Part shown: piece by piece, positions 4,814 through 32,775 of the stretch
Position numbering within the stretch: position 1 is the first letter of the stretch
Layout of the letters: each line of letters begins with the position of its first letter
Assembly (NCBI RefSeq): GCF_008087625.1
Contig: NZ_CP042997.1
Coordinates: 4,464,001-4,528,000 of the forward strand
Direction of reading: 5' to 3'
Source of the DNA: Aquisphaera giovannonii
GTDB lineage: Bacteria > Planctomycetota > Planctomycetia > Isosphaerales > Isosphaeraceae
Length of the DNA stretch: 64,000 bases
Made by a program: the position numbers and the translations under genes
Notes under the pieces: model-generated
What the model saw: the letters and a program-made list of their open reading frames with translations, nothing else
What the model was told of the DNA's origin: nothing
Database searches by the model: none

Positions 4814-4872
4814 TGAAAGACATCACCGCGCGGCCCGGAAGCTGGCCGCGCCACCTTGAGGAGGGTTGAAAC

Positions 4873-5598: not shown

Positions 5599-5599
5599 G

Positions 5600-6208
5600 A
5601 TGGAAACCCACCGCGCGGCATTCCTGGACAAGGATGGGACCTTGGTCGTGGACGTCCCGTACAACGTCGATCCCGACCAGATCCGGCTGGCGCCGGGGGC
5701 CGCCGAGGGGCTCGTCCTCCTCCGCGACGCCGGGTTCCGGCTGATCGTGATCTCGAACCAGTCGGGCGTCGCGCGGGGCCTCTTCGCCGAGGCGGCCATC
5801 GCGGCGGTCCGCGGACGGCTCGGCGAGCTGCTCGGGGAGATCGGCGTGGCGCTCGACGGCTTCTACTACTGCCCGCACCATCCGCAAGGCGTCGTGCCGG
5901 AATATGCGGTGGCCTGCGAGTGCCGCAAGCCCCAGCCCGGCATGATCCTCGCGGCGGCCCGCGACCACGCGATCGACCTGGGCCGCTCCTGGTTCCTCGG
6001 CGACATCCTCGACGACGTCGAGGCGGGCCGCCGGGCCGGCTGCCGGACGGCGCTCATCGCCAACGGCAACGAGACCGAATGGGAACGCTCGCCCCTGCGG
6101 TGGCCGGACGTCGTGGCACGCGACCTCGCCGAGGCCGCCCGGCTGATCACGGCCGCCCCCGACGCGGGCCCTCGACCCGACGCGAACATCCACCCGACCG
6201 GAGAATGA
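5600..6208 (+). CDS. gmhB: D-glycero-D-manno-heptose 1,7-bisphosphate 7-phosphatase
   Basis: A HAD-family phosphatase that removes the 7-phosphate from heptose 1,7-bisphosphate between the two HldE reactions of ADP-heptose synthesis, in the cytoplasm. Seen here: the nucleophile motif FLDKDGTLV with Asp10 and Asp12, the second motif VISNQSGVARG, and the zinc loop CPHHPQG...CECRKP (Cys/His/Cys/Cys) typical of GmhB and histidinol-phosphatase. The last motif is GDILDDVEAG, where GmhB enzymes usually have GD-x-x-x-D. Length (202 aa) is normal with a short extra tail. It starts one base after the SDR stop and overlaps hldE by ATGA, which strongly supports the heptose role. The alpha or beta anomer preference cannot be read. 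Confidence 0.92.
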   Translation: METHRAAFLDKDGTLVVDVPYNVDPDQIRLAPGAAEGLVLLRDAGFRLIVISNQSGVARGLFAEAAIAAVRGRLGELLGEIGVALDGFYYCPHHPQGVVPEYAVACECRKPQPGMILAAARDHAIDLGRSWFLGDILDDVEAGRRAGCRTALIANGNETEWERSPLRWPDVVARDLAEAARLITAAPDAGPRPDANIHPTGE

Positions 6209-7773
6209 CCGTGAGCACCAGCCTGCCCCGGATCGTCGACGCCTTCGCCGGGCTGCACGTCCTCGTCATCGGCGAGTCGATGCTGGACTGCTACCTCCAG
6301 GGCTCGACCAGCCGGCTCTGCCCGGAGGCGCCGGTGCCGATCGTCGACTTCGGGGCAAGGTCCGAGCAGCCCGGTGGAGCCGCGAACTCGGCCTTCAACG
6401 CGCTCTGCCTCGGCGCCGAGGTCTCGTTCCTCTCGGTCGTCGGCGACGACCCCGAGGGCGAGTCCGTCGTGCGGCAGCTCGCGCGGCGGGGCATCGATCC
6501 GGCGGACGTCCTGTCCCAGCGCGGGCGGAGGACCCTGGCGAAGCAGCGAGTCCTCGCGGGATCGCAGCTCCTGCTCCGCCTTGATTCGGGGGACACCGGG
6601 CCGATCTCGCCCGAGGTCGAGGATCGCCTCGTCGATCGGCTCGTGGGCCTCTGGCGTCGCTGCGACGCGGCGGTGGTCTCGGATTACGGCTATGGCGTCC
6701 TTTCCCCCCGCGTGATCGGGAAGCTGGGGGAGCTGCAGTCCGACCTCCCGCGCATTTTGGTCGTCGATTCGAAGCGACTGGCCCTCTATCGCGACGCGAG
6801 TCCGACGGCCGTGAAGCCGAACTGCCGCGAGGCCCTGCGCCTGCTGGACGTGCCCGGGCCCTCTTCGGCCTCGGAGCGCGTCGACTGGATGGCCGCGCGG
6901 GGGGCGAGGATCCTGGACATCTCCGGCGCCCGCATCGCCTCGGTGACGCTCGACTCCGAGGGGGCCCTCGTCTTCGAGCGCGACCGGCCGGCGTACCGGA
7001 CCTTCGCCAAGGCCGACCGCGACTCGCGGGTCGCCGGCGCGGGGGACACCTTCGCGGCCACGATCGCCCTGGCCCTGGCGGCGGGTGCGGAGACGCCCGC
7101 GGCCGCCGACCTCGCCTCGGCCGCCTCGGCCGTGGTGATCGGCAAGGAAGGCACGGCGACCTGCTCCGCGGCCGAGCTCCGCGACAGGGTCTCGCCGGCC
7201 GGCAAGTCGCTCGCCGATCGGGCGGAGCTGGCCGATTGCGTCGCGGGCCATCGCCGCCTCGGCCGCCGAATCGTCTTCACGAACGGCTGCTTCGACATCC
7301 TCCACCGGGGCCACATCTCGTACCTCAGCCGGGCCAAGGCGCTCGGCGACGTGCTCATCGTCGGCGTCAACTCGGACGAGGGGATCCGCCGGCTCAAGGG
7401 GCCGACCCGCCCGATCAACGCCCTGGAGGACCGGCTCCAGGTCCTCTCGGCCCTGAGCTGCGTCGATCACGTAATCCCGTTCGACGAGCCCACCCCGCAC
7501 GAGCTGATCCGCGTCGTCCGCCCGGACACCTTCGTCAAGGGCGGGGACTACACGCGGGCCACACTCCCCGAGGCGTCGCTCGTGGAGGAATTCGGCGGCA
7601 CGGTGGAGATCCTGTCCTTCCTGGCCGACCGCTCGACCACCGACATCATCGCGAGGATCCGCCGCGCCTACGGCGAAGGGGCAGGGGGGGCGGACGGCCA
7701 CCCGCCCCTCGGCGCTGCGGCCGACACGTGGGCCGACCACGCGCCGGCCCTCGGCGGGGGGAACGGTGTCTGA
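6205..7773 (+). CDS. hldE: Bifunctional heptose 7-phosphate kinase / heptose 1-phosphate adenylyltransferase
   Basis: HldE carries out two steps of ADP-heptose synthesis. An N-terminal PfkB/ribokinase domain phosphorylates heptose 7-phosphate at C1, and a C-terminal nucleotidyltransferase joins the 1-phosphate to AMP. Seen: the kinase substrate motif EQPGGAANSAFN, the catalytic GAGDTFAATIA (about residue 277 on), the linker, then FTNGCFDILHRGHISYL (about 356-372) containing the H-x-G-H nucleotidyltransferase signature and FVKGGDYT. The 522-residue length fits the fused enzyme plus about 40 extra C-terminal residues rich in Ala and Gly. ATG 6205 overlaps the gmhB stop. With gmhB it supplies most of the ADP-heptose route; gmhA and hldD are not in the window. 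Confidence 0.95.
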   Translation: MTVSTSLPRIVDAFAGLHVLVIGESMLDCYLQGSTSRLCPEAPVPIVDFGARSEQPGGAANSAFNALCLGAEVSFLSVVGDDPEGESVVRQLARRGIDPADVLSQRGRRTLAKQRVLAGSQLLLRLDSGDTGPISPEVEDRLVDRLVGLWRRCDAAVVSDYGYGVLSPRVIGKLGELQSDLPRILVVDSKRLALYRDASPTAVKPNCREALRLLDVPGPSSASERVDWMAARGARILDISGARIASVTLDSEGALVFERDRPAYRTFAKADRDSRVAGAGDTFAATIALALAAGAETPAAADLASAASAVVIGKEGTATCSAAELRDRVSPAGKSLADRAELADCVAGHRRLGRRIVFTNGCFDILHRGHISYLSRAKALGDVLIVGVNSDEGIRRLKGPTRPINALEDRLQVLSALSCVDHVIPFDEPTPHELIRVVRPDTFVKGGDYTRATLPEASLVEEFGGTVEILSFLADRSTTDIIARIRRAYGEGAGGADGHPPLGAAADTWADHAPALGGGNGV

Positions 7774-8893
7774 CATGAGCACGAGCGACGCCTGGTGCCG
7801 AGCCCGCCACATCCTCTGCGTCCGCCTGGACGCGATGGGGGACCTGCTCATGACGGTCCCCGCGATCCGGGCGCTGCGCGAGGCGGTCCCCGGCCGCCGC
7901 GTGACGCTGCTGACGTCGCCCTCGGGGGCCGAGGCCGCCGCGCTCATCCCCTGCGTGGACGACGTGATCATCTACGACGCGCCCTGGATGAAGGCCGCGG
8001 CCCCACGCGCCGATCCCGGCCCGGACCTCGCGATCGTGGAGCGGCTCGCCCGGGCCGGCCTCGAGGCGGCGGCGATCTTCGCGGTATACAGCCAGAATCC
8101 CCTCCCGTCGGCCATGCTCTGCTACCTGGCCGGGATCCCGCTCCGCCTGGCCCACTGCCGGGAGAACCCGTATCAGTTGCTCACGGACTGGGTCCCCGAG
8201 CGCGAGCCGCAGCAGCTCATCCGCCACGAGGTTCGCCGGCAGCTCGACCTGGTCGCCGCGGTCGGCTGCCGCGCGGCCGATGAGCGGATGCAGATCCGGA
8301 TCCCCGAGGTCGCGAGAGGACGCGTCGATTCCTGGCTGGGGGACCAAGGCCTCGGGACGGGCACCCCCTGGGCCGTGGTCCACCCCGGCTCGACGGCCGC
8401 CTCGCGGCGCTATCCGCCGCAGTCGTACGCGGAGGCCGCGACGCGGCTCGTCCGCGACCACGGGGTCCGGCTGGTGTTCACGGGAGGCGCGTCGGAGCGG
8501 GAGACGATCCAGTCGATCCGCCTGGCGATGGGCGGCGTCGCGTCGCTCTCGCTGGCGGGCGAGCTGAGCCTCGCCGAGCTCGCGGCCCTGATCGGCCGCG
8601 CGCCTTTGCTGATCTCGAACAACACCGGCCCGGTCCACGTCGCCGCGTCGGTGGGTACGCCGGTGGTGGACCTGTACGCGCTGACCAACCCGCAGCACAC
8701 CCCCTGGGGAGTGCCGAGTCGGGTCCTCAATCACGACGTCCCCTGCAAGTACTGCTACAAGAGCGTCTGCCCGGAGGGGCACCACGACTGCCTCCGCCTC
8801 GTCACGCCCGGCCAGGTCGTCGCCGCGGCGATCGAGCTGCTGGGGCTGGCCGGCCCAATGGCGCGAGCCGAGACGACCGGATCCGTGGCCTGA
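7766..8893 (+). CDS. GT9 family heptosyltransferase-like glycosyltransferase (second copy)
   Basis: A second GT9 enzyme, probably adding another heptose. Seen: ILCVRLDAMGDLLMTVPAIR near the N-terminus (the GD-x-L-x-x-x-P motif), VVHPGSTAASRRYPPQSYAEAA in the C-terminal domain, and LLISNNTGPVHVAASVGTPVV as the donor-binding segment. After that come CKYCYK, CPEGHHDC and a short helix. This four-cysteine group occurs in a subset of GT9 proteins and may bind metal. Length 375 aa. GTG 7766 overlaps the end of hldE; ATG 7775 is an equally good start and would trim three residues. It follows hldE directly, so ADP-heptose is the most likely donor. It is clearly diverged from the 1447-2514 copy. Confidence 0.9.
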   Translation: MSDMSTSDAWCRARHILCVRLDAMGDLLMTVPAIRALREAVPGRRVTLLTSPSGAEAAALIPCVDDVIIYDAPWMKAAAPRADPGPDLAIVERLARAGLEAAAIFAVYSQNPLPSAMLCYLAGIPLRLAHCRENPYQLLTDWVPEREPQQLIRHEVRRQLDLVAAVGCRAADERMQIRIPEVARGRVDSWLGDQGLGTGTPWAVVHPGSTAASRRYPPQSYAEAATRLVRDHGVRLVFTGGASERETIQSIRLAMGGVASLSLAGELSLAELAALIGRAPLLISNNTGPVHVAASVGTPVVDLYALTNPQHTPWGVPSRVLNHDVPCKYCYKSVCPEGHHDCLRLVTPGQVVAAAIELLGLAGPMARAETTGSVA

Positions 8894-8917
8894 ACCGGAA
8901 CCCCTGGAGAACGCGTG

Positions 8918-10651
8918 ATGTATACCCTCGGGATCAACGCCGCCTACCACGACTCGTCCGCCTGCCTCGTCCGCGACGGCGTGGTGGTCGCCGCGTCGGA
9001 GGACGAGCGGTTCACGCACATCAAGCACGCCAAACGCCCTGTCCCCTTCTCGACGTGGGAGCTCCCGTTCCACGCGATCGACGACTGCCTGAAGCACGCG
9101 GGGATCACCCTGGCCGAGGTGGACCACGTCGCCTATTCGTACGACCCGCACCTGCTGCTAGGGAGGCACGCGAGAGACGCGACGATCACGCTGCCGCTCG
9201 AGCCCAGCGCGCATCCGAGGCCGGCGGAGTGGGAGGCGGCCTGGGATCCCCTCTTCCTCTCGTCGATCGTCAACGCGCCCCGGCAACTCGCCGACGGCGC
9301 CCCGCACCACCTGCGCGACCGGTTCCGGGGCGTCCGGCCCGATGGACCCTTCCGCTGGCACTTCGTCGCCCACCACCTGGCCCACGCGGCGAGCGCCTTC
9401 CACGTCTCGCCGTTCGAGGAGGCGGCGGTGATGACGCTCGACGGCCGCGGCGAGAAGGCGACCACGGGCTACGCCGTCGGCCGGGGGAGCGACCTCGAAT
9501 GGCTCGGCCAGGTCCACATGCCGCACTCGCTGGGCCTCCTGTATGAAGACGTGACCGACTACCTCGGCTTCCTCCGCTCGTCGGACGAGTACAAGGTGAT
9601 GGCGCTGGCCTCCTACGGGAAGCCGCGGTACGCGTCCGAGTTCCGCAAGATGATCCGGCTCGGCGACGGCGGGGACTACGCGATCGAGCCGACGCGACTG
9701 GAGGAGCGGTTCGGCCCGGCCCGCCGCCGCGGCGGCCCGCTCGAGGCCCGGCACTTCGACATCGCCCACTCGCTGCAGGCCGTCCTCGAGGAGACCGTCG
9801 TTGAGCTGTCGCGATGGCTGCACGCCGCCTCCGGCTGCGGGGATCTCTGCATGGCCGGCGGCGTCGCGCTGAACTGCGTGATGAACGCCCGCGTGCGCGA
9901 CCGCGGCCCGTTCCGGCGGGTCTGGATCCAGCCCGCGGCCGGCGACGCCGGTACTTCGCTGGGCGCGGCCGTCTGGGTGGACGCGAAGGAGCGGGGCGAC
10001 GGCACCCGGCCGTACACGATGGACCACGCCTACCTCGGCCCGAGCTACGGCGACGACGAGATCGAGGCCTTCCTCAAGTGGTCGAAGCTCCCCTATCGCC
10101 GCCTCCACGACGTCGCCGGGCAGACGGCGGAGATCCTCGCGCGAGACGAGGTCATCGGCTGGTTCCAGGGGCGCATGGAGTTCGGCCCCAGGGCCCTCGG
10201 CTCGCGGTCGATCCTGGCCTCCCCGATCCACCCGGAGATGCAGGCGAGGCTCAACGAGATCAAGGATCGCGAGGATTTCCGCCCGGTCGCCCCGGTCGTC
10301 CTGGAGGAGGCGGCGTCCGAGTGGTTCGACGGCGCCGGGGTCTCGCCCTTCATGCTGTTCATCCACGACGTGCGCCCGGACAAGGCCGACCGCATCCCGG
10401 CCGTCCGGCACACCGACGGCACGGCGCGGATCCAGACGGTGAACCGAGCCCAGCACCCGCTCTACTACGACCTGATCAAGGCCTTCGCCGCCCGCACGGG
10501 GGTCCCGGTGCTGGTCAACACGTCGTTCAACACCCGGGGCGAGCCGATCGTCTGCACCCCGAGGGACGCGGTCGAATCGTTCTGGACCTCGCCGCTGGAC
10601 GCGCTCGTGATCGGCTCGTTCCTGCTCGAGAAGCGGCGGACGGAGGCGTGA
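8918..10651 (+). CDS. NodU/CmcH-type carbamoyltransferase
   Basis: Transfers a carbamoyl group from carbamoyl phosphate, through carbamoyl-adenylate, to a hydroxyl group on a sugar or natural product. The N-terminal ASKHA-fold (Kae1-like) domain has LGINAAYHDSSACLV and ASEDERFTHIKH, then HHLAHAASAFHVSPF with the metal-binding His residues, and MAGGVALNC further on. The C-terminal YrdC-like-associated half has FQGRMEFGPRALGSRSIL and VLVNTSFNTRGEPIV, both diagnostic. Length 577 aa is normal. ATG 8918 with TGGAGA upstream is preferred; GTG 8915 is adjacent and would add one residue. Its place between a heptosyltransferase and a GT2 suggests that the glycan made by this operon is carbamoylated, as in NodU-modified Nod factors. 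The acceptor is inferred, not seen. Confidence 0.93.
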   Translation: MYTLGINAAYHDSSACLVRDGVVVAASEDERFTHIKHAKRPVPFSTWELPFHAIDDCLKHAGITLAEVDHVAYSYDPHLLLGRHARDATITLPLEPSAHPRPAEWEAAWDPLFLSSIVNAPRQLADGAPHHLRDRFRGVRPDGPFRWHFVAHHLAHAASAFHVSPFEEAAVMTLDGRGEKATTGYAVGRGSDLEWLGQVHMPHSLGLLYEDVTDYLGFLRSSDEYKVMALASYGKPRYASEFRKMIRLGDGGDYAIEPTRLEERFGPARRRGGPLEARHFDIAHSLQAVLEETVVELSRWLHAASGCGDLCMAGGVALNCVMNARVRDRGPFRRVWIQPAAGDAGTSLGAAVWVDAKERGDGTRPYTMDHAYLGPSYGDDEIEAFLKWSKLPYRRLHDVAGQTAEILARDEVIGWFQGRMEFGPRALGSRSILASPIHPEMQARLNEIKDREDFRPVAPVVLEEAASEWFDGAGVSPFMLFIHDVRPDKADRIPAVRHTDGTARIQTVNRAQHPLYYDLIKAFAARTGVPVLVNTSFNTRGEPIVCTPRDAVESFWTSPLDALVIGSFLLEKRRTEA

Positions 10652-10653
10652 TC

Positions 10654-11622
10654 ATGACCTTGCGAGCCACGATCGTGGTCCCCACCTACCGGAGGCCGGA
10701 CCTGCTGGACCGCTGCCTCCAGGCCCTCACCGCCCTGGACTTCGACCCGGCGGAGGGCGAGATCGTCGTGGCGGACGACGCCGGGAGCGAGGAGACGCGG
10801 ACGCAGGTCGAGGGGTGGGCACGCCGCTCGGCGATCCCGATCCGTTATGCGACGCCCGCCTCGGCCCACGGGCCTGCCGCGGCCCGGAACGCGGGATGGC
10901 GGGCGGGGCAGGGGGGCATCGTCGCCTTCACCGACGACGACTGCATCCCCGACCCGCGCTGGCTGGCGGAGGGCGTGGCCGCGATCGAAGCGGGCGCCGA
11001 CGCCGCCTCCGGTCGCGTCGTCGTCCCGCTCCCGGAGCGGCCGACGGACTACGAGCGCGACGCCGCCGGCCTCGCGCGGGCGGAGTTCGTGACCGCCAGC
11101 TGCTTCGTCCGGCGTGATGTCCTGGAGTCCGTGGGCGGCTTCGACGAACGGTACGCCCAGGCCTGGCGGGAGGACAGCGACCTCCAGTTCGCCCTCCTGG
11201 AGCGGGGGTGCCGCATCGACCGGGCCTCGCGGGCGGTCGTCGTCCATCCGGTCCGCCCGGCCCCGTGGGGGATCAGCCTCCGGCAGCAGCGCAAGAGCCT
11301 ATTCAACGCCCTCCTGTACAAGAAATTCCCGGATCGATACCGGCGGCAAATCCGGGCCTCGCCCCCCTGGGACTACTACGCGACCATCGGGGCGATGGCG
11401 ACGGCAGCAGCCGCGGCCTACTCCGGTTCCCCGCGGATCGCACTGGCGGCGGCCGCCATCTGGGCGGCACTCACCGTCCGGTTCTGCGCCCGCCGCCTGC
11501 GGCACGCGGCGACCGACCCTCGCCACGTGCTCGAGATGGCCGTGACCTCGGCCCTGATCCCGCCGCTCTCGGTGTTCTGGCGGCTGTACGGGGCGTTCAA
11601 GTTCCGCGTCCTCTTCCTGTGA
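10654..11622 (+). CDS. GT2 family glycosyltransferase with C-terminal membrane segments
   Basis: An inverting GT2 enzyme of 322 aa. Seen: IVVPTYRRPDLLDRCLQAL at the N-terminus, VADDAGSEE for nucleotide binding, AARNAGWRAGQGGIVAFTDDDCIPD with the metal-binding D-D-D, and the acceptor region GGFDERYAQAWREDSDLQFALL with E-D. After about residue 240 the protein has one or two hydrophobic stretches (AMATAAAAAYSG to AAAIWAALTV, and a C-terminal ALIPPLSVFW segment), suggesting membrane attachment. ATG 10654 lies three bases after the carbamoyltransferase stop; an in-frame GTG at 10648 is an alternative. Sugar donor unknown. It is related to the broken GT2 at the left edge only at family level. Confidence 0.88.
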   Translation: MTLRATIVVPTYRRPDLLDRCLQALTALDFDPAEGEIVVADDAGSEETRTQVEGWARRSAIPIRYATPASAHGPAAARNAGWRAGQGGIVAFTDDDCIPDPRWLAEGVAAIEAGADAASGRVVVPLPERPTDYERDAAGLARAEFVTASCFVRRDVLESVGGFDERYAQAWREDSDLQFALLERGCRIDRASRAVVVHPVRPAPWGISLRQQRKSLFNALLYKKFPDRYRRQIRASPPWDYYATIGAMATAAAAAYSGSPRIALAAAAIWAALTVRFCARRLRHAATDPRHVLEMAVTSALIPPLSVFWRLYGAFKFRVLFL

Positions 11623-17912: not shown

Positions 17913-18890
17913 CTAGGCCCCGCGGCGGGATTCAATCCCGGCCACGACGTGCCCCAGTCCGCGCTCGGAGACGTGGCCGATCAGGTCGGCCCAGCTCAGG
18001 ATGCCGGCCAGGACGCCTTCACCATGGACGACCAGCAGGCGCCGGACGCCGCGCGCGCGGAAGGCGACGATGGCGTCGGCGAGCGTCGCGTCGGGGGCGA
18101 TGGACGCGACGTCTCGCGTCATCAGGTCCCCGACGGTCGCGCCGACCGGGCCGCCGCCTCGCGCGGACGCCAACGCCACGTCGCGGTCGGTCAGGATGCC
18201 CACCGGCTTGCCGCCCTCGGTGACCGGCACGGCGCCGCAGCCGGCGTCGCGGAAGATCAGGACCGCCTCGAGGACGGTGCTCTCCGGGGAGCAGGTGCGC
18301 GGCGAGGCCATCATCACGTCGGCGACCGCGAGCATGGGGTTGACCATGTCCGCGGGGGTGACCAGCGGGACCGGCTCGGGGTGCGCCCCGGCGGGGGAAT
18401 CCCAGGGGTGCGGCTGGGCCTGCGACTTCGAGGCCTTGATCTCCGCGGCCGGATCGCCCGCGCGCGGGCCCGGGGCCGGACGGACCTCCTCCGGGGTCAC
18501 GACCCCCTTGAGCAATCCATCCTCGTCGACGGCGAGGAGCCCGCCGTCGGCCCCGGCGAGCCGGCCCGCCGCCTCCTCGGCCGACGCGTTCATCGGGATC
18601 GTGGGGGCGTCCTCGGCCATCACGTCCGCGGCGGTGAGGCCCGACAGGTCGCCCCCGCGGTCGGCCAGCGCCGACGCCAGGCCGCGCCCCGTGACGATGC
18701 CGATCGGGACCTGGGCGCGCGTGACCGCCAGGACCGGGCAGCGGGACTGGAGCAGGGCCGCGGCGACCTCCGGGATCGGCGTGGACGCATTGCACGACCG
18801 GAAGTCGGTCCGCATCAGCTCGGCGACGGTGCGCCCCCCGCCCGAGAGGCCGGCCCGCGCGGCCGGGTCCCGACGCCCTTCAGTTATCAT
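17913..18890 (-). CDS. Four-CBS-domain protein
   Basis: A 325-residue soluble protein made of two Bateman modules. CBS1 starts at VAELMRTDFRSC, CBS2 at TAADVMAEDAPTIP, CBS3 at AVADVMMASPRTCSPE and CBS4 at TVGDLMTRDVASIAPD. Each has the V-x-D/E-L/V-M opening and the G-I-V/L-T (D/G)R closing strand that forms the adenosyl-nucleotide pocket. A Pro/Ala-rich linker at about residues 143-190 joins the modules. No enzyme domain is attached, so it probably senses AMP, ATP or SAM and regulates a partner. GAGAGG lies upstream of the ATG. It diverges from the cytochrome b561-sulfite-oxidase fusion with 237 bp between. Confidence 0.88.
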   Translation of the reverse strand: MITEGRRDPAARAGLSGGGRTVAELMRTDFRSCNASTPIPEVAAALLQSRCPVLAVTRAQVPIGIVTGRGLASALADRGGDLSGLTAADVMAEDAPTIPMNASAEEAAGRLAGADGGLLAVDEDGLLKGVVTPEEVRPAPGPRAGDPAAEIKASKSQAQPHPWDSPAGAHPEPVPLVTPADMVNPMLAVADVMMASPRTCSPESTVLEAVLIFRDAGCGAVPVTEGGKPVGILTDRDVALASARGGGPVGATVGDLMTRDVASIAPDATLADAIVAFRARGVRRLLVVHGEGVLAGILSWADLIGHVSERGLGHVVAGIESRRGA

Positions 18891-19127: not shown

Positions 19128-20678
19128 ATGGATCCGTCCTACCTCGGCGGCTTCGGGCCGCTCGGCTTTCCGCTCTGGGTCCGGGTCACGCACTGGTTCA
19201 ACTTCCTCTTCCTCACGCTGCTGGCCCGCAGCGGCCTGGCGATCCTGGCGGCGCACCCGAAGCTCTACTGGAACATCCACAGCCGGCCGGGGAGCGAGTG
19301 GATCCGATTCACCCGCAAGGCGCTGCCCGCCGACCGGATGTGGTGCTCGACCGACGAGGAGGTGGAGGCCCCGTCCTGGCTCGCGTTGCCGGGCGGAAAG
19401 GGCCTGGGGCTGGGCCGCTACTGGCATTTCTTCAACGCGATGGCCTGGCCCCTGTGCGGCCTGGTCTACGTGACGCTGATGTTCGCCACGCCCCAGTGGA
19501 GACGGCTGGTGCCCACGTCGTGGGAAGTTCTGCCCGACGCCTGGCGGACCCTCGTGGCCTACCTCCAGTTCCAGCAACCGGGGCCGCACCCGCCGTATTC
19601 CTACGATCCCCGGCTGCCGTTCAACTCGCTCCAGCAGCTCACGTACTTCGGCCTGATCTTCGGATTGGTCCCGTTCGAGATCGCCACCGGCCTGGCGCAG
19701 TCGCCGTCGATCCTGGGCCGCCTGCCGTGGGTGGAGCGGGCGTTCGGCCGGGGGGGCAGGCAGGCGGCGCGGAGCATCCACTTCCTGGGCCTGGCCGCCT
19801 TCGCCGGATTCCTGGTGGTCCACGTCTTCATGGTCGCCTGGCACGGGTTCGCCGCGGAGATGGACAAGATGGTCCTGGGGCGGGAGGAGGCCACCGGATC
19901 GTGGCTGGGGGCCTGGCTCGGCCTGGGGATCGTCGCCGCGGTCGTGGCGATCCATGCGGCGGCGAACCACGCCTCGGCGAGGCACCGACGCGCCACGCAT
20001 CGGGCCCTGGCGGCGGTCGTCGATCCCGTGCGGCGGAACACGCTGCACAGGCTCGTGTCCGTGCAGGACTACCGGGAGTCGGAGGTATCCCCCTATTTCC
20101 GGCTCAACGGGTATCCTCCGATCGCGGCGTATCCCCAGGCGCAGGGAGGCGATCAGACCTACGAGCGGTTGCTGGGCGGGGGCTTCGCCGATTACCGGCT
20201 GGAGGTCGGCGGGCTGGTCAAGTGCCCGCTGAGTCTGTCCCTGGATGACCTCAGGGCAATGGCACGCCAGGACCAGACGACGCTGCACCACTGCATCCAG
20301 GGCTGGACGTCGATCGGCCGGTGGTCCGGCGTCCCGATCGGCGAGGTCCTCGACCGGTGTCGACCGAGCCCGGAGGCGAGGTACCTGGTCTTCCGCTCCT
20401 TCGGGATGCATGAATACACGGGCAAGCCTTACTACAAGTGCGTGGCGATGGAGATCGGACGCCATCCGCAGGCGATCCTGGCGTACGAGCTGAACGGCGA
20501 GCGGCTGCCGCTCCAGCACGGGGCGCCGCTCAGGGCGCGGTTCGAGACGAAGCTCGGCTTCAAGATGGTCAAGTTCCTGAGGTCGATCGAGGTGGTCGAC
20601 GACTATCGCAGGGTCGGCGACGGCCTGGGCGGGTCGCGCGAGGACGAGCAGCAATTCGACATGGGCGCCGAAATCTGA
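19128..20678 (+). CDS. Membrane cytochrome b561 fused to a sulfite-oxidase-type molybdopterin domain
   Basis: A 516-residue fusion. The N-terminal half (residues about 10-300) is a cytochrome b561/Ni-hydrogenase b-type bundle with about five membrane segments. Candidate haem ligands are His in RVTHWFNF, GRYWHFFN, RSIHFLG and VVHVFMVAWH. The C-terminal half (about 330-500) is a sulfite-oxidase/YedY-type Mo domain. The motif HHCIQGWTSIGRWSG holds the Cys that binds Mo, and FGMHEYTGKPYYKC, AILAYELNGERLPLQHGAPLR follow. With an odd number of helices and an inside N-terminus, the Mo domain would face the periplasm. The ATG at 19128 follows AAGGTGA. In E. coli the related MsrP and MsrQ are separate proteins; here both halves are in one chain. 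Substrate unknown. Confidence 0.9.
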   Translation: MDPSYLGGFGPLGFPLWVRVTHWFNFLFLTLLARSGLAILAAHPKLYWNIHSRPGSEWIRFTRKALPADRMWCSTDEEVEAPSWLALPGGKGLGLGRYWHFFNAMAWPLCGLVYVTLMFATPQWRRLVPTSWEVLPDAWRTLVAYLQFQQPGPHPPYSYDPRLPFNSLQQLTYFGLIFGLVPFEIATGLAQSPSILGRLPWVERAFGRGGRQAARSIHFLGLAAFAGFLVVHVFMVAWHGFAAEMDKMVLGREEATGSWLGAWLGLGIVAAVVAIHAAANHASARHRRATHRALAAVVDPVRRNTLHRLVSVQDYRESEVSPYFRLNGYPPIAAYPQAQGGDQTYERLLGGGFADYRLEVGGLVKCPLSLSLDDLRAMARQDQTTLHHCIQGWTSIGRWSGVPIGEVLDRCRPSPEARYLVFRSFGMHEYTGKPYYKCVAMEIGRHPQAILAYELNGERLPLQHGAPLRARFETKLGFKMVKFLRSIEVVDDYRRVGDGLGGSREDEQQFDMGAEI

Positions 20679-20688
20679 GGGGGGAGCC

Positions 20689-21237
20689 ATGGCCGAGGCG
20701 GCCGAGAATCCGGGGCCCGCCGCGAAGCGGGCCGTGACCCTGCCCGATCCGATCTGGGCGCCCCTGGCCGTGGGGGGCCTCCTGCTGGCCGTGGGGCTGA
20801 TCGGCCTGGCGGCGGGGCAGCCGTGGCTCTTCCCCAGCCTCGGGCCGACGGCCTTCCTCCAGGCCGAGGAGCCGGGCAAGCCGGGCTCCCGCTTCTACAA
20901 CACGGTCGCGGGCCACCTCATCGGCTTCGCGGCCGGCGCCCTGGCCGTCTGGGTGCTCGGCGCCTCGGGCGCGCCGTCGGTCCTCGCGGACAAGGAGCTG
21001 ACCGGGATCCGCGTCGGCGCCGCGGCGATCTCGGGCGTGCTGACGATGCTCGGCCTGACGCTGCTCCGGGCCTCGCACCCGCCGGCCGCCGCCACCATGC
21101 TCCTGGTCGCCCTCGGCGGCTTCGAGCCGAGCTGGCGGAGCGCGGCGATCGTCGGAGCCGGCGTTGTTATCCTCGCCGTCCTCGGCGAGGGCGTGCGGTA
21201 CGTCCGGCGCGAGATCGTCGTCCCGCCGGCCCGGTAG
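20689..21237 (+). CDS. HPP family integral membrane protein
   Basis: A 182-residue membrane protein with the HPP-family signature RASHPPAAATMLL and about four hydrophobic segments: WAPLAVGGLLLAVGLIGLAA, VAGHLIGFAAGALAVWVLG, AAAISGVLTMLGLTLL and AAIVGAGVVILAVLG. The N-terminal PWLFPSLGPTAFLQAEEPGKPGS block is also typical. Some HPP proteins of cyanobacteria and plants transport nitrite across membranes; others are uncharacterised. GGGGGGAG precedes the ATG, and it lies 10 bp after the b561-Mo fusion, so the two are almost certainly co-transcribed. A role moving a small anion linked to the Mo enzyme is a reasonable guess. Confidence 0.85.
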   Translation: MAEAAENPGPAAKRAVTLPDPIWAPLAVGGLLLAVGLIGLAAGQPWLFPSLGPTAFLQAEEPGKPGSRFYNTVAGHLIGFAAGALAVWVLGASGAPSVLADKELTGIRVGAAAISGVLTMLGLTLLRASHPPAAATMLLVALGGFEPSWRSAAIVGAGVVILAVLGEGVRYVRREIVVPPAR

Positions 21238-23250: not shown

Positions 23251-26109
23251 TCACGAGGGGACGGTCAACGCCTGGGCGGCCGCATGGTCGGAACGCGTGC
23301 GGAGCCAGTCGGCCTGCCGGCGGTTCGTGGAGGACGCGTCGGACAGGATGGATTCCATTTCCTCGTCACGCAACGCCTGCCCGGCCATGATGAGCAGCTC
23401 ATAGGCGATCTGGAGCTCGTGGACCAGCAGGCGGAGGTCGTGGAGGTCGCGCACCAGCCCGAGGCCACCGCTCCTCGGCCCGTGGAAGAGGGCATTGTGC
23501 AAGGCCGCCGACTCATCCTCCTTCGCTTCGTGATAGCGTGCCACCAGCGGGGCCAACCTGCCCAGGTTCTCATCCGACCACGAGGCCAGGAGCCGAGTCA
23601 TCTGGTACACATCCGGCTCCCGGCGATGGTGCTCCGCCACGTCCCGGAGCGACTCGGCCAGGTGCCGCTCGCTCCGCTCGGCGAGCCCGAGATAGTTGGC
23701 GACGTGCGCCTTGCCGGTGACCTGCGTCTCCTCGGACTTGATCGCCGAGCCGATCCCGGAGACCACCGTGCCAATCCCGGACGCGACGGCGGAGGCGACG
23801 TCGCCGGCCCGGGTCGCCAGCGAGATTTTCGCCACGCTCACGGCCGCATACTTGAAGTGCGGCTGCTTGCTCACCGCGTCCCACTCCGTGATCGTGAGCT
23901 CGTTCGCGGCGCGGGGATGGTCCGGGTCATCCCAGGTGCCGTAGTGGAACGGGACGAAGACGTGCCCGGGCGCGATGTCACCGATCCGGGCGACGACCCG
24001 GATCCGCCCCCGTCGCGACGCGACCTCGACCATGTCCCCCTCCGCGATCCCGAGCCGGGCGGCGTCCTCCTCGGCGATCTGCGCGAAGGCGTCCGGGGCG
24101 GCGTCGTTGAGGGCCCGCGATCGCCCCGTCTTGGTCCTGGTGTGGAAGTGGTAGACGATCCTCCCGGTGGTCAGCCAGAGGGGGTAATCGTCGTCGGGAC
24201 GCTCGTGGGGCTCCTGGTAGTCCGCCGGCTTGAGGATCGCCTTCCCCCGCGGGTCGTTCGCCTTGTAGTGCTCGGGATCGACCATGCCCCCGGTGACGAG
24301 GTCGTGGCCGAAGGTCTCGCAGGAGCCGGCGTCGGTGGGGAAGACGCCGTCCGCGTAGAGCCGCTCGAGGCCGTCGGGGTGCTCCTCGTTGCAGGGCCAC
24401 TGGAGTGGCCCGCGCCCGAGGCGGGCGTAGGTCATGCCGGTGTAGTCGCAGGGCCGCCCGCGCGTGCATTCCTTCCAGCCCTCGAAGGCCCCTTCGGGGT
24501 CGGCCCACTTCACGAGCGGGGCGCCGTCCTTGTCTCGGAAGCCCATCCGCCGGGCGTAGTCGAGGAAGATGTCGAGGTCCGACCTCGCCTCGCCGGGCGG
24601 CTCGACGGCCTGTCGCGAGAGGTGTACCGTCCGATCCACGTTGGTGAAGCAGCCCGTCTTTTCGCCCCAGATCGCCGCCGGCAGGACGACGTCGGCCAGG
24701 GCGGCGGTCTCGGTGAGGAACGCATCCTGGACGACGACGAACAGGCCCGGCCTGCGGAGGATCTCGCGGACGCGGTGCAGCTCGGGCAGCGACACCGCCG
24801 GATTGGTGGCGCTGATCCAGAGGAGCTTGATGGACCCCGTCTCGGCGTAGCGGAAGATCTGCATCGCGTGCGTCGGCGGGGTCCAGTGCGGGATGACGCC
24901 CGGCTCGACGTTCCAGATCCTGGCGAGCTCGGCGATGTGCTCCGGGTTGTCCCAGTTGCGGAAGGCCGGCAGGTCCCCGTCGGCGCCGCACTCCCGGGTG
25001 TTCTGCGCGGTCGGCTGGCCGTTCATCTGGTAGAGCCCGCAGCCGGGCCGGCCGAGCATCCCGCGGATCAGGTGGAGGTTGTTCACCTGGCAGGCCGCGG
25101 CGGTCGCCTGCATCGACTGGTAGACGCCCTGCAGGACGGTCGAGACGAGGGATCTCGCCCCGCCGAGGATCGCCGCCGCGGCCCGGAGGCGGTCCTCCGG
25201 CACGCCAGTGACCTCCGCGACCCGCCCCGGCGGCCACCGCCGGGCGATGTCGGCGAGGTGGTCGAACCCGACGGTGTGCGCGGCGATGTAATCGCGGTCG
25301 ATGTGCCCCGCCTCGATGATGAGGTGGATGAGGCCGTTCAGGAGCGGGACGTTCGTCCCGACCCGCGGGGCGAGGTGGACGTCCGCCTCCTTGGCCGTCG
25401 CCGTGGCCCGCGGGTCGACGACGACGAGCTTCGGCGGGTTCGGCCCGCGGCGGCGATCGAGGATGCGGGCCCAGAGGACCGTCTGCTGCGAGGCGATGTT
25501 GTGGCCGACGTGGAAGATCGCCTCGGTCGTGTCCAGGTCGGTGTACGACCCAGGCTGGCCGTCCGCGCCGAAGGTCTCCTTGAGCGCGGTCGCGGCCGTC
25601 GCCGTGCACAGCCGCGTGTTGCCGTCCATGTGCGGCGTGCCCAGCCCCGCCTTGCCGATGATCCCGAGCGTGTAGTACTCCTCCAGGAAGAGCTGGCCCG
25701 ACGTGTAAAAGCCGATGGACCCGCCCGTGAAGCGATCGAGGAGCTCCCGGGACCTCTCGACGATCAGCCCCATGGCGTCATCCCAGCTCGCCTCCTTCAG
25801 GCCGCCGGCCCCGCGGATCAGCGGGCGGGTGAGCCGGTCGGGGCTGTGATTGGCCACCCAGCCGTGGAGCCCCTTGGGGCCCAGTCGGCCCCGGTTGACC
25901 CGGTCGCCGGCACTCCCGCGGACGCGCACGATCTTCCCGTCGCGGACGCCGATCTCCAGGCCGCATCCGTTGGAACAGAGGACGCAGGCCGACGGGACCC
26001 ACCGCTCCGGCTCCGCTTCGATCCGCACGTCCTGCCGGACGGGCCATGTCCCCTCGTACGGCGTCCGCTCGCCCCAGATGTCGGCGATGCTGTCGCGCGT
26101 TTCTTGCAT
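23251..26109 (-). CDS. Molybdopterin oxidoreductase (nitrate-reductase/FdhF-like) with helical C-terminal tail
   Basis: A 952-residue member of the DMSO-reductase superfamily, cytoplasmic, with no signal peptide. The N-terminal cluster has C42-x2-C45-x3-C49 in SACVLCSNGCG. The fourth cysteine, expected about 28 residues later, is replaced by Gly77 in NRGRLGPKG. The probable Mo-ligand is Cys168 in GNTRLCTATA, as in Nas/Nap-type enzymes. IFHVGHNIASQQ, LISATNPAVSLPE-like and EKTGCFTNVDRTVHLS blocks follow. The molybdopterin-binding C-terminal domain ends around VSVAKISLATRAG (about residue 750). A further 200 residues are helical (ERSERHLAESLRDVAEHHRR, LLVHELQIAYELLIMAGQA) and look ferritin-like. 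Substrate (formate, nitrate or other) is open. Confidence 0.85.
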   Translation of the reverse strand: MQETRDSIADIWGERTPYEGTWPVRQDVRIEAEPERWVPSACVLCSNGCGLEIGVRDGKIVRVRGSAGDRVNRGRLGPKGLHGWVANHSPDRLTRPLIRGAGGLKEASWDDAMGLIVERSRELLDRFTGGSIGFYTSGQLFLEEYYTLGIIGKAGLGTPHMDGNTRLCTATAATALKETFGADGQPGSYTDLDTTEAIFHVGHNIASQQTVLWARILDRRRGPNPPKLVVVDPRATATAKEADVHLAPRVGTNVPLLNGLIHLIIEAGHIDRDYIAAHTVGFDHLADIARRWPPGRVAEVTGVPEDRLRAAAAILGGARSLVSTVLQGVYQSMQATAAACQVNNLHLIRGMLGRPGCGLYQMNGQPTAQNTRECGADGDLPAFRNWDNPEHIAELARIWNVEPGVIPHWTPPTHAMQIFRYAETGSIKLLWISATNPAVSLPELHRVREILRRPGLFVVVQDAFLTETAALADVVLPAAIWGEKTGCFTNVDRTVHLSRQAVEPPGEARSDLDIFLDYARRMGFRDKDGAPLVKWADPEGAFEGWKECTRGRPCDYTGMTYARLGRGPLQWPCNEEHPDGLERLYADGVFPTDAGSCETFGHDLVTGGMVDPEHYKANDPRGKAILKPADYQEPHERPDDDYPLWLTTGRIVYHFHTRTKTGRSRALNDAAPDAFAQIAEEDAARLGIAEGDMVEVASRRGRIRVVARIGDIAPGHVFVPFHYGTWDDPDHPRAANELTITEWDAVSKQPHFKYAAVSVAKISLATRAGDVASAVASGIGTVVSGIGSAIKSEETQVTGKAHVANYLGLAERSERHLAESLRDVAEHHRREPDVYQMTRLLASWSDENLGRLAPLVARYHEAKEDESAALHNALFHGPRSGGLGLVRDLHDLRLLVHELQIAYELLIMAGQALRDEEMESILSDASSTNRRQADWLRTRSDHAAAQALTVPS

Positions 26110-29966: not shown

Positions 29967-30920
29967 TCATTGTCCGTGCATCCCCGACCAGTCCACGGCG
30001 TCGGCGGGGAAGATGGGGCCCTCGACGCAGACGCGGCGGAGGTCCGCGGAGCCGTTGGGCTGGCGGATCGGGGCGACGCAACTGAAGCAGGCGCCGAAGC
30101 CGCAGGCCATGTGGTTCTCCAGCGAGACCTCGCAGGGGACCTCGTACTTCGACGTCAGGCGAGACAGGGCTGCGAGCATCGGGGCCGGGCCGCAGCCGAT
30201 CACGCGGGCCGGGAGCGGCCCGCGTTCCAGGCGGGCGGCCAGCAGGTCGGTCACGTACCCGTGGTGCCCGGCGGAGCCGTCGTCGGTGGCGACCTCGACG
30301 GCGATCCCGGCCGACCGGAAATCGTCCAGGCCCGCGAGGAGGGGCTCGCTCCGCACGCCGTAGAGCATCAGGGGTGCGGCGGAGATCGGGCGGGCGATAC
30401 GCTCGCCGCCGTAGGCCATCCGGCCCATCCACCAGCGGCCCAGGGCGAGGAAGGGCGTCTGCCCGAGGCCGCCGGCCACGAACACGACGTCGCCCCGCGG
30501 CGGGGCCCCGAAGCCGTTGCCCAGCGGACCCCAGACCGAGAGCCGCTCCCCCGGCCTGCGGCCCGCGAGCGCCCCGGTGCCGCGGCCGACGACGAGGTAC
30601 ACGAGGTCTACCGCGGCGGGCTCGCCCGCCCCGTCGAGCACCACGTCGTAGAGCGCAAACGGGCGGCCGAGCAGGGGGTCGGACGCCCCCTCCGGCCCGG
30701 GCCGGACCATCGCGAACTGGCCGGGGCGGATGAACTTCGCCAGGCCCGGGGCGGCCAGGCGCAGGCGATAGGTGTCGCGGGCGATCGGGACGTTCTCCAG
30801 CACGGACGCCGACCACACCGCGGCGGACGCGGGCGCCACGGCCGGATCGCGGGCGTCGTGCGACGGCCCGCTCGCGGGATGCTCGTGCCGATGCGGCTCG
30901 GATTCGGGCGTCGCGGTCAT
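29967..30920 (-). CDS. pyrK: Dihydroorotate dehydrogenase electron-transfer subunit-like flavoprotein
   Basis: A 317-residue ferredoxin-reductase-type protein. PyrK passes electrons from dihydroorotate dehydrogenase B to NAD through FAD and a [2Fe-2S] cluster. Seen: the FAD segment RPFALYDV, glycine-rich GPLGNGFG, VAGGLGQTPFLALG for the nucleotide, and the cysteine loop ENHMACGFGACFSCVAP with a distal Cys in RRVCVEGPIF. Those are the four PyrK cluster ligands. An N-terminal 35-residue extension is His/Pro-rich. It overlaps the rluB-like gene by ATGA. pyrD is not in the window, so the partner is unknown and another NAD-dependent Fe-S flavoprotein role remains possible. Confidence 0.82.
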   Translation of the reverse strand: MTATPESEPHRHEHPASGPSHDARDPAVAPASAAVWSASVLENVPIARDTYRLRLAAPGLAKFIRPGQFAMVRPGPEGASDPLLGRPFALYDVVLDGAGEPAAVDLVYLVVGRGTGALAGRRPGERLSVWGPLGNGFGAPPRGDVVFVAGGLGQTPFLALGRWWMGRMAYGGERIARPISAAPLMLYGVRSEPLLAGLDDFRSAGIAVEVATDDGSAGHHGYVTDLLAARLERGPLPARVIGCGPAPMLAALSRLTSKYEVPCEVSLENHMACGFGACFSCVAPIRQPNGSADLRRVCVEGPIFPADAVDWSGMHGQ

Positions 30921-32611
30921 CCCTCACCCTCTCCGGGCCGGCGGATGCCCGATGCCCTCCTCGGCGGCTTCCGCTTCACGTTGGGGCGCTTCCGGGGCGG
31001 CTTCCCGGAGAGCCCCATGCCGGCCTCGGCGGCGACCTTCGGGTCCAGGCCGATGATCCGCCGGGCGGGCGGGCCCTCGCCGCCCGCATCGCCGGCCTTG
31101 CCGGGGGCGGGCTTGGGCGCCTTGGGCATGGGCCCGGGGACGGCCGCTCGCGGGGCGGGGGGCCTGGGGGCGCCCCCCGGCGGGCCGGGCTTCCGGGGCC
31201 GCCTCGGGCCCTCCGGGCCCCCCTCGGCGGCCGCCGGCGGGCGCCTCGGGCCCGTCGCGCCGGGCATCGGCCCGAGCCCCGGCATGGGCTTGGCACCGGG
31301 CATCCCGGGCTTGCTCGGCCTGGGTCCGGCCCCCGCGGGCTTGCCCGGCATGGGCTTGGCACCGGGCATCCCGGGCTTGCTCGGCCTGGGTCCGGCCCCC
31401 GCGGGCTTGCCCGGCATGGGCTTGCCGCCCGGGGCAGCGGGGCCTGGGCCGGGCCGACCCGGCCGGGCGGCAGGGGGACGCGGCGGTGCGGCGCCTTCGC
31501 GGCGAGGCCGGGGCCCTTCGAGTCGCTTGCCCCCGCGGCCGGGCCGATGGCCTCCCCCCGCGTCGGAGAACCGGGGCGGGGCGACCTCGATGCCGGCGGC
31601 GACCTTGCGGAGCAGGTCGATCTCGGTCCGCGACAGGGCGCGGTGCTCGCCGAGCGGCAGGCCCTTCAGCACGACCGGGCCGATCGCCACGCGGTTCAGC
31701 CGCATGACCTTGTGCCCGAGCTTCGCGAGCATCCGCCGGACCTCGCGGTTCTTGCCCTCGGCCAGGACCAGCTCCAGCAAGGTCGCCTCGCCCTGCGTGC
31801 CGACGAGCCGGGCACGCTTGGCTCGGACCTTGCCGTCGGACAGCCAGATGCCCTCGGTCAGCCGGTCCAGGAGCTCGCGGCCTGGCGTGCCGGCGATGAG
31901 GGCCCGGTACGTCTTCTCGACCCCATACTTGGGGTGGGCCAGTCGGTTGGCGAGCTCGCCGTCGTTGGTGAGGATCATCAGCCCGGTGCTGTCCTCGTCC
32001 AGCCGGCCGACCGAGTACACCCGCTCCAGGACCTCCGGCAGCAGGTCGATCACGCGGGGCCGCCCGGCCGGGTCGGAGTTCGTCGAGACGTAGCCCTTGG
32101 GCTTGTTCACGGCGAAGTAGACCATCCGCTCGCGCTTGATCCGCTCGCCGTCCACGGCGACGACCTGGGTCCGGAGGTCGACCTTCGTGCCGAGCTCCTT
32201 GGCGACCTGGCCGTCGATGGTGACGCGGCCCTGGACGATGTACTCCTCGCACTCGCGCCGCGAGCCGAGGCCCGCGTGCGCGAGCACCTTCTGGAGCCGC
32301 TCCGGCTTGCCGGAATCCGGGCCGTGGGCCTGGTGTTGGGCGGCGGCCCCGTCGTCCCGACGGGCGGGATGCGGCCTCGACGCCGGCCCGCCCGGGCCGG
32401 GCTTCCGGGGCCCGCCGGGGGCGCCCGGCCCGCCGGGCCTCCCCGGGGGACCGGGGCGCTTGCCCTCGAACTTCCGACGCGCGCCGCCGCCCGGCTTGCC
32501 GCCGGGCCCGGGGCCCCTCTTCGGCGGGCCGCCGCCCGGCTTGCCGCCGGGCCCGGGCCCCCGCTTGGAAGGGCCTCGGCCCCCGCCCCGGGAGGATGGA
32601 TGTTGAGCCAT
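30917..32611 (-). CDS. rluB: Pseudouridine synthase (RluB/RsuA family) with long low-complexity tails
   Basis: Converts a uridine of rRNA, probably 23S position 2605, to pseudouridine. The 564-residue protein is about twice the family length. The core has an S4 RNA-binding domain (RLQKVLAHAGLGSRRECEEYI, then GRVTIDG) and the catalytic motif GRLDEDSTGLMILTNDG, where the Asp attacks the base, then KTYRALI and NREVRRML. Both sides are Pro/Gly/Lys/Arg-rich: about 100 residues at the N-terminus (GPGPGGKPGGG repeats) and about 200 at the C-terminus, including a 66-bp tandem repeat. ATG 32611 has GGGGAG ten bases upstream. It overlaps pyrK. The tails are probably disordered and may bind RNA. Confidence 0.88.
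   Translation of the reverse strand: MAQHPSSRGGGRGPSKRGPGPGGKPGGGPPKRGPGPGGKPGGGARRKFEGKRPGPPGRPGGPGAPGGPRKPGPGGPASRPHPARRDDGAAAQHQAHGPDSGKPERLQKVLAHAGLGSRRECEEYIVQGRVTIDGQVAKELGTKVDLRTQVVAVDGERIKRERMVYFAVNKPKGYVSTNSDPAGRPRVIDLLPEVLERVYSVGRLDEDSTGLMILTNDGELANRLAHPKYGVEKTYRALIAGTPGRELLDRLTEGIWLSDGKVRAKRARLVGTQGEATLLELVLAEGKNREVRRMLAKLGHKVMRLNRVAIGPVVLKGLPLGEHRALSRTEIDLLRKVAAGIEVAPPRFSDAGGGHRPGRGGKRLEGPRPRREGAAPPRPPAARPGRPGPGPAAPGGKPMPGKPAGAGPRPSKPGMPGAKPMPGKPAGAGPRPSKPGMPGAKPMPGLGPMPGATGPRRPPAAAEGGPEGPRRPRKPGPPGGAPRPPAPRAAVPGPMPKAPKPAPGKAGDAGGEGPPARRIIGLDPKVAAEAGMGLSGKPPRKRPNVKRKPPRRASGIRRPGEGEG
31283..31414. repeat. Two exact 66-bp tandem copies inside the pseudouridine synthase gene
   Basis: Copies at 31283-31348 and 31349-31414 appear identical base for base, with the first bases of a third copy after 31415. 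Each encodes 22 residues of Pro/Gly/Lys-rich sequence (AKPMPGKPAGAGPRPSKPGM) on the minus strand. The perfect match suggests recent duplication by slippage or recombination. Confidence 0.9.
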
Positions 32612-32775
32612 GAGAATCTGCTCCCCGACAAAGCCCGGCAGCGGCCCGACCACCGCAGCCGGCACTTCGCCTCGCGCCCCCTTGTGACGCCTCCAGGACC
32701 CCACTCATCTTAGGCCCCCGCCCGCCCCTTGCCCAGGGGACTGCCCCGCGGGTGGAGCCCGCCCGCGCCGGCGTG

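Follow-up and report, generated by a model that had tools for sequence, protein, structure and literature searches.

In the nitrate reductase and formate dehydrogenase branch of the molybdopterin enzymes, an N-terminal iron-sulfur cluster connects the molybdenum with the outside. We analyzed a gene of this kind from Aquisphaera giovannonii (Planctomycetota, Isosphaeraceae), which lies in a 64,000-nucleotide stretch of contig NZ_CP042997.1 (assembly GCF_008087625.1, positions 4,464,001 to 4,528,000) that we call the window and to which all positions below refer. The encoded molybdopterin oxidoreductase has glycine in place of the fourth cluster cysteine and ends in an extra helical tail. Comparison with its relatives places it in a widespread, apparently undescribed family of NapA-like molybdenum enzymes that is losing the cluster site. 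Judged by titles and the beginnings of abstracts, and within the terms used, no account of this family was recognized among the open-access papers searched.

A NapA-like enzyme with three cluster cysteines

The gene is a single open reading frame of 952 codons on the minus strand (23251 to 26109; open reading frame list and translation), and its product joins a NapA/NasA-like core to a ferritin-like tail. Three Pfam domains score above their cutoffs: the Molybdop_Fe4S4 domain (PF04879, residues 36 to 84, positions 25858 to 26004, 47.2 bits against a cutoff of 22.7), the catalytic domain (PF00384, residues 92 to 516), and the dinucleotide-binding domain (PF01568, residues 644 to 755). Residues after about 790 have no Pfam match. 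The initial annotation, made from the sequence alone, took the end of the molybdopterin-dinucleotide domain to be abnormal, a point that does not stand, as PF01568 is complete and the tail is additional to it. The predicted structure (AlphaFold, mean predicted local distance difference test score [pLDDT] of 88) matches NapA of Desulfovibrio desulfuricans best (2NAP; Z 51.1, root mean square deviation [rmsd] of 1.6 Å over 691 residues, 36% identity), which is also the closest solved protein by sequence. This match and the three Pfam domains give the window protein the fold of NapA-type molybdenum-bis(pyranopterin guanine dinucleotide) (Mo-bisPGD) enzymes.

The likeness to NapA spans residues 33 to 762 and takes in the molybdenum-ligand cysteine, the lysine after the cluster motif, and the arginine and glutamine behind the GQ motif. 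Cys168, the predicted molybdenum ligand (codon 25606 to 25608, minus strand), lies in RLCTATA and aligns with RLCMAS of the D. desulfuricans enzyme. Arg372 (codon 24994 to 24996, minus strand) follows the GQ motif, and in the 12 four-cysteine outgroup rows the segments shown all have arginine at the corresponding position. Among the 25 of 27 NCBIfam matches listed, no specific model exceeds its curated cutoff. The top model is Fdh-alpha (TIGR01591, 493 bits against 666.25), which is also matched by all 39 family members scanned, and lower scores were obtained for NasC (408.9 against 1100 bits), haloarchaeal NasA (377.5 against 1000), NapA (352.9 against 904), and arsenite oxidase (TIGR02693, 138.4 against 359.05). 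Neither a twin-arginine nor a hydrophobic export signal was seen by eye at the N terminus, and the enzyme is for this reason taken to be cytoplasmic.

The cluster domain holds C42-x2-C45-x3-C49, followed by GRLGPKG with Gly77 (codon 25879 to 25881, minus strand) at the fourth position. NapA of D. desulfuricans has GLLCLKG here, and lower-scoring relatives in other genomes have G..CPKG or similar. Relatives for comparison were drawn from plasmid records (12 loci read with their annotation), from the window's own phylum, and from named bacterial and archaeal genomes, for which the best 80 of at least 580 confirmed matches were used. The alignment contains 94 sequences (the window protein, L007, and L036 to L127, L numbers being our locus labels), and residue counts refer to the 92 rows that remain when the shortened rows L036 and L097 are set aside.

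Two classes account for all 92 rows. Class I, with three cysteines and Gly77, has 55 rows and includes the window protein; class II, with no cluster cysteine at all, has 37, every one titled Actinomycetota (among them L041, L042, L047, L065, L112, and L118). After rows 90% alike were merged, 50 class I and 31 class II rows remained. Class I is found under record titles or classes that include Bacteroidota, Deinococcota, Pseudomonadota, Nitrospira, Ktedonobacteria, Gemmataceae, Actinomycetota, Staphylococcus, and others. Neither chance nor a sequencing or frame error explains Gly77, because glycine is conserved there in 55 of 55 class I rows. The three-cysteine motif with its glycine had been recorded in the initial annotation and is a property of many enzymes; the branch that lacks all four cysteines is an addition to it.

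Class II enzymes have replaced the site in a regular way. Position 42 is Ser in 29 rows, Thr in 6, and Ala in 2, and positions 45 and 49 are His and Asp in all 37, forming H45-x3-D49. Position 77 is Gly in 23 and Asp in 14, and Gly80 has become Asp throughout (37/37), with PKD in place of PKG. Neither class has the four cysteines that hold the [4Fe-4S] cluster of NapA/NasA-type enzymes. Lys79, Cys168, Gln365, and Arg372 are kept in 92 of 92 rows.

The classes hold beyond this set. The relatives had been ranked with a query that contained the tail, and the search was repeated with the core only (residues 1 to 765, match at E 1e-150). In an even draw of 296 Actinomycetota genomes, 18 gave a match, as did 2 of 299 genomes of the phylum of Microvirga (centers included), and all further Actinomycetota members with a full N terminus fit class I or class II. 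Few genomes of the phylum to which the window belongs have the gene: a match above 1000 bits was obtained in 2 of 294 sampled genomes, the window's own included. Viral contigs gave 96 pattern matches and no relative of the family.

Order of cysteine loss

A tree was built from 78 sequences: 60 of the 94 alignment rows, 6 members from the core-only search, and 12 four-cysteine relatives picked by hand from L008 to L035, L133, and L152 as outgroups. Columns 42, 45, 49, 77, and 80 were removed beforehand. The tree is a quick IQ-TREE run supported by the Shimodaira-Hasegawa-like approximate likelihood ratio test only, with 26 of 75 inner branches weak and some branches long. It separates the 12 four-cysteine enzymes (support 100) from the 66 family rows. 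All 27 zero-cysteine rows fall within one 42-member group (support 97), whose other 15 rows have three cysteines and all come from Actinomycetota, and the zero-cysteine state amounts to two changes on the tree, one of them forced by well-supported branches. Enzymes outside the family normally have four cysteines, and the order is accordingly read as four, then three with glycine, then none. On these aligned sequences, a stepwise loss of the cluster cysteines is shown by computation.

Candidate fourth ligands

If class I had a substitute for the missing cysteine, that residue would be expected to relax once the cluster was gone, and we therefore looked for positions conserved in at least 85% of class I and at most 60% of class II rows. 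Eleven positions pass: the three cysteines and K56, S120, S137, K153, T592, H602, Y642, and S698. None of the eight noncysteine positions is invariant in class I, and across the 92 aligned rows no ligand-type residue was found that is invariant in class I and lost with the cysteines. The initial annotation had proposed either a [3Fe-4S] cluster, another ligand, or a different route of electron entry. No invariant replacement ligand was found in the aligned rows, so a [3Fe-4S] cluster or a different electron entry remains a fair reading.

His602 (codon 24304 to 24306, minus strand) is the only ligand-type residue among the eight that clearly loosens together with the cysteines, and it is what is left of the idea of a hidden fourth ligand that vanishes with the cluster. 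Histidine occupies this position, which lies in a short stretch missing from the outgroups in the alignment, in 47 of the 55 class I rows (22 of 23 from actinobacteria and 25 of 32 others) against 7 of 37 class II rows. The eight class I rows with Q, Y, K, E, or R instead still keep the three cysteines. Asp69 behaves differently: of the sequences in the tree, 65 of the 66 family members and none of the 12 outgroups have it, and it is kept in both classes.

A ferritin-like tail, fused or encoded alongside

The tail is an extra domain of about 150 residues after the dinucleotide domain, joined by a linker (residues 772 to 800) with pLDDT below 50. Modeled alone, it reaches pLDDT 90 and is predicted to form a C-terminal four-helix bundle of ferritin type at residues ~800 to 947 (positions 23269 to 23712, minus strand). 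Five helices are predicted (800 to 827, 832 to 859, 866 to 874, 881 to 913, and 916 to 947), in agreement with the helical C terminus described initially. In VIA-align the tail matches bacterioferritin (4cvs; Z 18.1, rmsd 2.9, 146 residues) and YciF (2gs4; Z 18.0, rmsd 2.5, 151 residues), and Z values near 18 exceed the 13 to 14 that helical bundles attain through a common arrangement. The top Foldseek matches are also ferritin-like proteins, at weak scores (best E 7e-3), which weighs against the fold assignment. From these models, the predicted fold of the tail is ferritin-like.

Sequence searches point the same way in part. At E up to 1, 10 of 64 tails match DUF2383 (best 2e-5), 7 match DUF892 (best 0.0038), and 1 matches Ferritin; the window's own tail has no match in the same Pfam scan. 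A profile search for a sequence relation to a solved protein established none: it listed 10 chains with E of 10 or less, led by designed proteins, and the best value was 0.0011.

The initial annotation suggested a ferritin-like domain, which holds for the fold; a conserved diiron motif is missing. Diiron ferritins carry two ExxH motifs, on helices B and D. As a motif test, the window tail contains no [ED]xxH at all, ExxH occurs anywhere in 53 of 92 tails, and only 14 of 92 hold two or more, with no common place. The commonest E/D-x-x-H column pairs are found in 35 of 92 tails (position 833) and 28 of 92 (position 868). In the lack of a conserved ExxH pair, a role as iron store or diiron enzyme is unsupported. 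What is conserved instead is a different set of residues: H828 (89/92), D888 (91/92), Q932 (87/92), W935 (88/92), Q946 (89/92), and, less strictly, E814 (67/92). From the order of the helices, our guess is that Q932xxW935 occupies the helix D place of ExxH.

Class II tails often have additional histidines, at positions 811, 836, and 848 in 35, 29, and 34 of 37 rows; in class I the corresponding counts are 19, 6, and 32 of 54. These may reflect shared ancestry only or possibly a metal site.

The tail accompanies the enzyme nearly everywhere. Of 93 relatives, 16 have it fused, 76 encode it as a frame of its own immediately after the enzyme gene, and only Staphylococcus L043 is without it. The 16 include L046, whose frame is open although its record lists the tail separately. 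Separate tails begin to match 6 to 149 bases after the enzyme stop (median 9). Four-cysteine L152 (40% identity) and L133, both outgroups, have no tail. Among the 19 Actinomycetota members from the core-only search, 17 have a tail, L149 has none, and L148 ends at the contig end; both members in the phylum of Microvirga carry a fused tail. Since a search with the core alone repeats the pairing, we regard the association of tail and enzyme as a feature of the family and the fusion in the window as one form of it. The fusion called unusual at the outset is real, then, but belongs to a regular pairing, and the motif and C-terminal comparison proposed with it finds Gly77 across class I and a tail in 92 of 93 relatives.

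Neighboring genes

The other recurrent neighbor, which was not part of the initial annotation, is an HPP-family membrane protein, a putative nitrite transporter (20689 to 21237, plus strand; PF04982, 57 bits). It lies 2 kb from the enzyme gene and is the only HPP match in the 10.5-Mb genome. Two predicted genes separate it from the enzyme gene, which is encoded on the opposite strand, and it is therefore a neighbor and not an operon partner. HPP homologs occur in the loci of 21 of 93 relatives (E 1e-6). In 20 of the 21, the HPP gene shares the strand of the enzyme or tail gene and sits beside it, with one formate/nitrite transporter (FNT) gene between in Deinococcus L037; that of L086 is far off on the opposite strand. 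For 12 of the 93 loci the sequence extends less than 2.5 kb on one side, and a missing HPP gene means little there. In cyanobacteria and chloroplasts, HPP proteins have been described as transporting nitrite (Maeda et al. 2014, cited in an excerpt of PMC7438415).

In a Pfam tally of 129 neighbors, HPP ranked first with 10 and the next family had 5. The 129 comprise 127 of 131 plus-strand neighbors from 68 loci (left out were two pieces of the broken L036 gene, L040:2393-2773, and L057:2201-3298) and two HPP-like genes added by hand (L039 and L051), without which the HPP count is at least 8. The neighbor filter dropped genes just behind fused enzymes, and the clustering of neighbors was disturbed by spurious frames in GC-rich DNA. 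Among the 25 commonest of 137 neighbor families there was no reductase partner, ferredoxin, flavoprotein, nitrite reductase, or Rieske protein, and among the relatives' neighbors no further recurrent partner beyond the tail and HPP stood out. An FNT gene adjoins the enzyme gene in Deinococcus L037, and a formate dehydrogenase gene is nearby in Halomonas L039.

Next to the HPP gene, the window encodes a membrane protein with a cytochrome b561-like and a sulfite-oxidase-type molybdopterin domain (19128 to 20678, plus strand; PF01292 and PF00174). Curtobacterium L040 has a homolog (38%, 508 amino acids; 3933 to 5609, plus strand) directly upstream of its own family gene, the only case among the 93 relatives, and the protein is a possible, weakly supported partner.

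Several further observations concern these loci. In L051, from the nitrite oxidizer Nitrospira moscoviensis, the enzyme is of the fused form (7300 to 10874) with an HPP gene directly upstream. In L036, a Gloeothece verrucosa plasmid, the family gene (6001 to 8777) is split among several frames and annotated in fragments only; an HPP gene follows it. Beside the b561-like and HPP genes of the window, positions 17913 to 18890 (minus strand) encode a protein of 325 amino acids in which four CBS-domain stretches are the only Pfam matches. The frame at 30917 to 32704 (minus strand) by eye resembles a pseudouridine synthase extended by a long, repetitive tail rich in Gly and Pro.

Discussion

We hold with moderate confidence that the family consists of NapA/NasA-like cytoplasmic Mo-bisPGD oxidoreductases that have a degraded electron entry, use a dedicated ferritin-like subunit, and carry out nitrate or nitrite chemistry. 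In class I, the three cysteines would most likely hold either [3Fe-4S] or a [4Fe-4S] cluster that has one open iron, and the potential would probably be raised, with arsenite oxidase as the analog. In class II, where the usual ligands are gone, electrons from the donor would reach the molybdenum directly or via a partner, perhaps through the H45/D49/D80 pocket and the tail. The ferritin-like bundle would be a permanent subunit that probably docks near the electron-entry side or stabilizes the enzyme, and not a canonical iron store. The molybdenum-ligand cysteine, Gln365, Arg372, the GQP motif, and the NapA fold together suggest chemistry on a small oxyanion. With an HPP gene as recurrent neighbor, nitrate becomes the likeliest substrate, in the simplest case reduced to nitrite that HPP would move.

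Several results weigh against this proposal. For 72 of 93 relatives no HPP gene was found nearby, and the one in the window faces the other way across two predicted genes. The 25 commonest neighbor families include no redox partner. In NapA, the Arg behind the GQ motif and the Met beside the molybdenum-ligand cysteine are both important; at the second place all 92 family rows have Thr where the 12 four-cysteine outgroups all have Met, and the family also differs from the outgroups at H203, N363, and N370 of the pocket. In view of these changes the substrate may not be nitrate. The Streptomyces werraensis genome encodes a class II enzyme and also an ordinary four-cysteine relative, and nitrate assimilation there need not depend on the family enzyme. 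Finally, His602 could be a fourth ligand, a cluster partner, or a bystander, and Asp69 is a candidate for an unusual fourth ligand.

Comparison with described systems helps to place the family. Like NasA, NasC, and NarB, these enzymes are apparently cytoplasmic, with one catalytic chain and the same three Pfam domains. Unlike NasA and NasC, they score far under the corresponding cutoffs and have no flavin, ferredoxin-type, or nitrite reductase family among their commonest neighbors. They differ from NapA in the glycine or the loss of all four cysteines, in the threonine, in the ferritin-like domain or partner, and in having no export signal visible by eye. Arsenite oxidase AioA resembles class I in its three cysteines and noncysteine fourth position in the same domain, but AioA has no protein ligand to molybdenum and works with a Rieske partner, whereas the family keeps the molybdenum-ligand cysteine and class I has Gly77, not Ser. 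The window protein lies outside the AioA group, with a structure match of Z 38 against 51 for NapA. According to an excerpt of PMC3758308, the arsenite oxidase site is a three-cysteine [3Fe-4S] site with the pattern C-x2-C-x3-C-x70-S.

The tail has the four-helix bundle of YciF/YciE, DUF892/DUF2383, and bacterioferritin proteins, and it differs from YciF and bacterioferritin in having no conserved ExxH pair and in being bound to, or encoded beside, a molybdoenzyme. Identity with three nitrate reductase candidates of Mycobacterium smegmatis listed in an excerpt of PMC7816997 (NasN, 1351 amino acids; MSMEG_6816, 720; MSMEG_2237, 760) was set aside by protein size, as the sizes differ from those of this family. 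In the same species, the targets of GlnR include an HPP gene and MSMEG_6816, which lie far apart on the chromosome (excerpt of PMC3662644).

One alternative, possible although we consider it rather unlikely, is that Gly77 is harmless and class I keeps an ordinary [4Fe-4S] cluster whose fourth ligand is His602, Asp69, water, or the backbone, the enzyme being a nitrate reductase of the assimilatory type. Many close relatives are annotated as nitrate reductases in public records, His602 is far commoner in class I than in class II, and Asp69 separates the family from the outgroups. Noncysteine ligation of this cluster is known, with His as ligand in NarG and ethylbenzene dehydrogenase (excerpt of PMC8840923). 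Against this, eight class I rows lack His602 and still retain three cysteines, Asp69 persists in class II enzymes, for which a cluster is not expected, and Thr universally replaces the Met beside the molybdenum-ligand cysteine.

Cluster-free electron uptake seems to us unlikely as a description of the whole family. The cytoplasmic biotin sulfoxide reductase BisC receives electrons from NAD(P)H directly or from a small thiol protein; by analogy, the class I cysteines would be structural, and the tail would tune or protect the molybdenum site. Class II fits such a scheme, having no cysteine at the site while the other hallmark residues are invariant, and so does the absence of redox-partner families among the commonest neighbors. 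However, the three cysteines are invariant in all class I rows, which suggests that something is still bound there, and Lys79 is universal; in related enzymes, the lysine after the cluster motif is a relay between cluster and pterin.

A more specific form of the proposal for class II, which we regard as quite doubtful, is that the cluster has been replaced altogether, with H45, D49, and D80 forming a new mononuclear metal or hydrogen-bond site in its emptied pocket, and that the ferritin-like partner, which the three-cysteine enzymes already possess, now delivers electrons to the molybdenum. If it were true, the family would record, in living intermediates, the swap of one electron-entry device for another.

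That the substrate is formate or another small acid, as in formate dehydrogenases, is improbable: Fdh-alpha is the top NCBIfam model and matches every member scanned, and formate-related genes lie near the enzyme in Deinococcus L037 and Halomonas L039, but the score is under the curated cutoff, Thr-Ala follows the molybdenum-ligand cysteine where formate dehydrogenases have a signature His after the ligand residue, the GQ..R motif with Arg372 is common to nitrate reductase-like outgroups, and the best structure match is NapA.

The genes of this family are labeled plain nitrate reductase in many plasmid records, and inventories of the nitrogen cycle may include under that name an enzyme of putative activity. 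A loss of the cluster in two steps, with the other hallmarks held, amounts to a natural experiment on cluster-free electron delivery, and the near-constant ferritin-like partner is an obvious candidate for compensating that loss.

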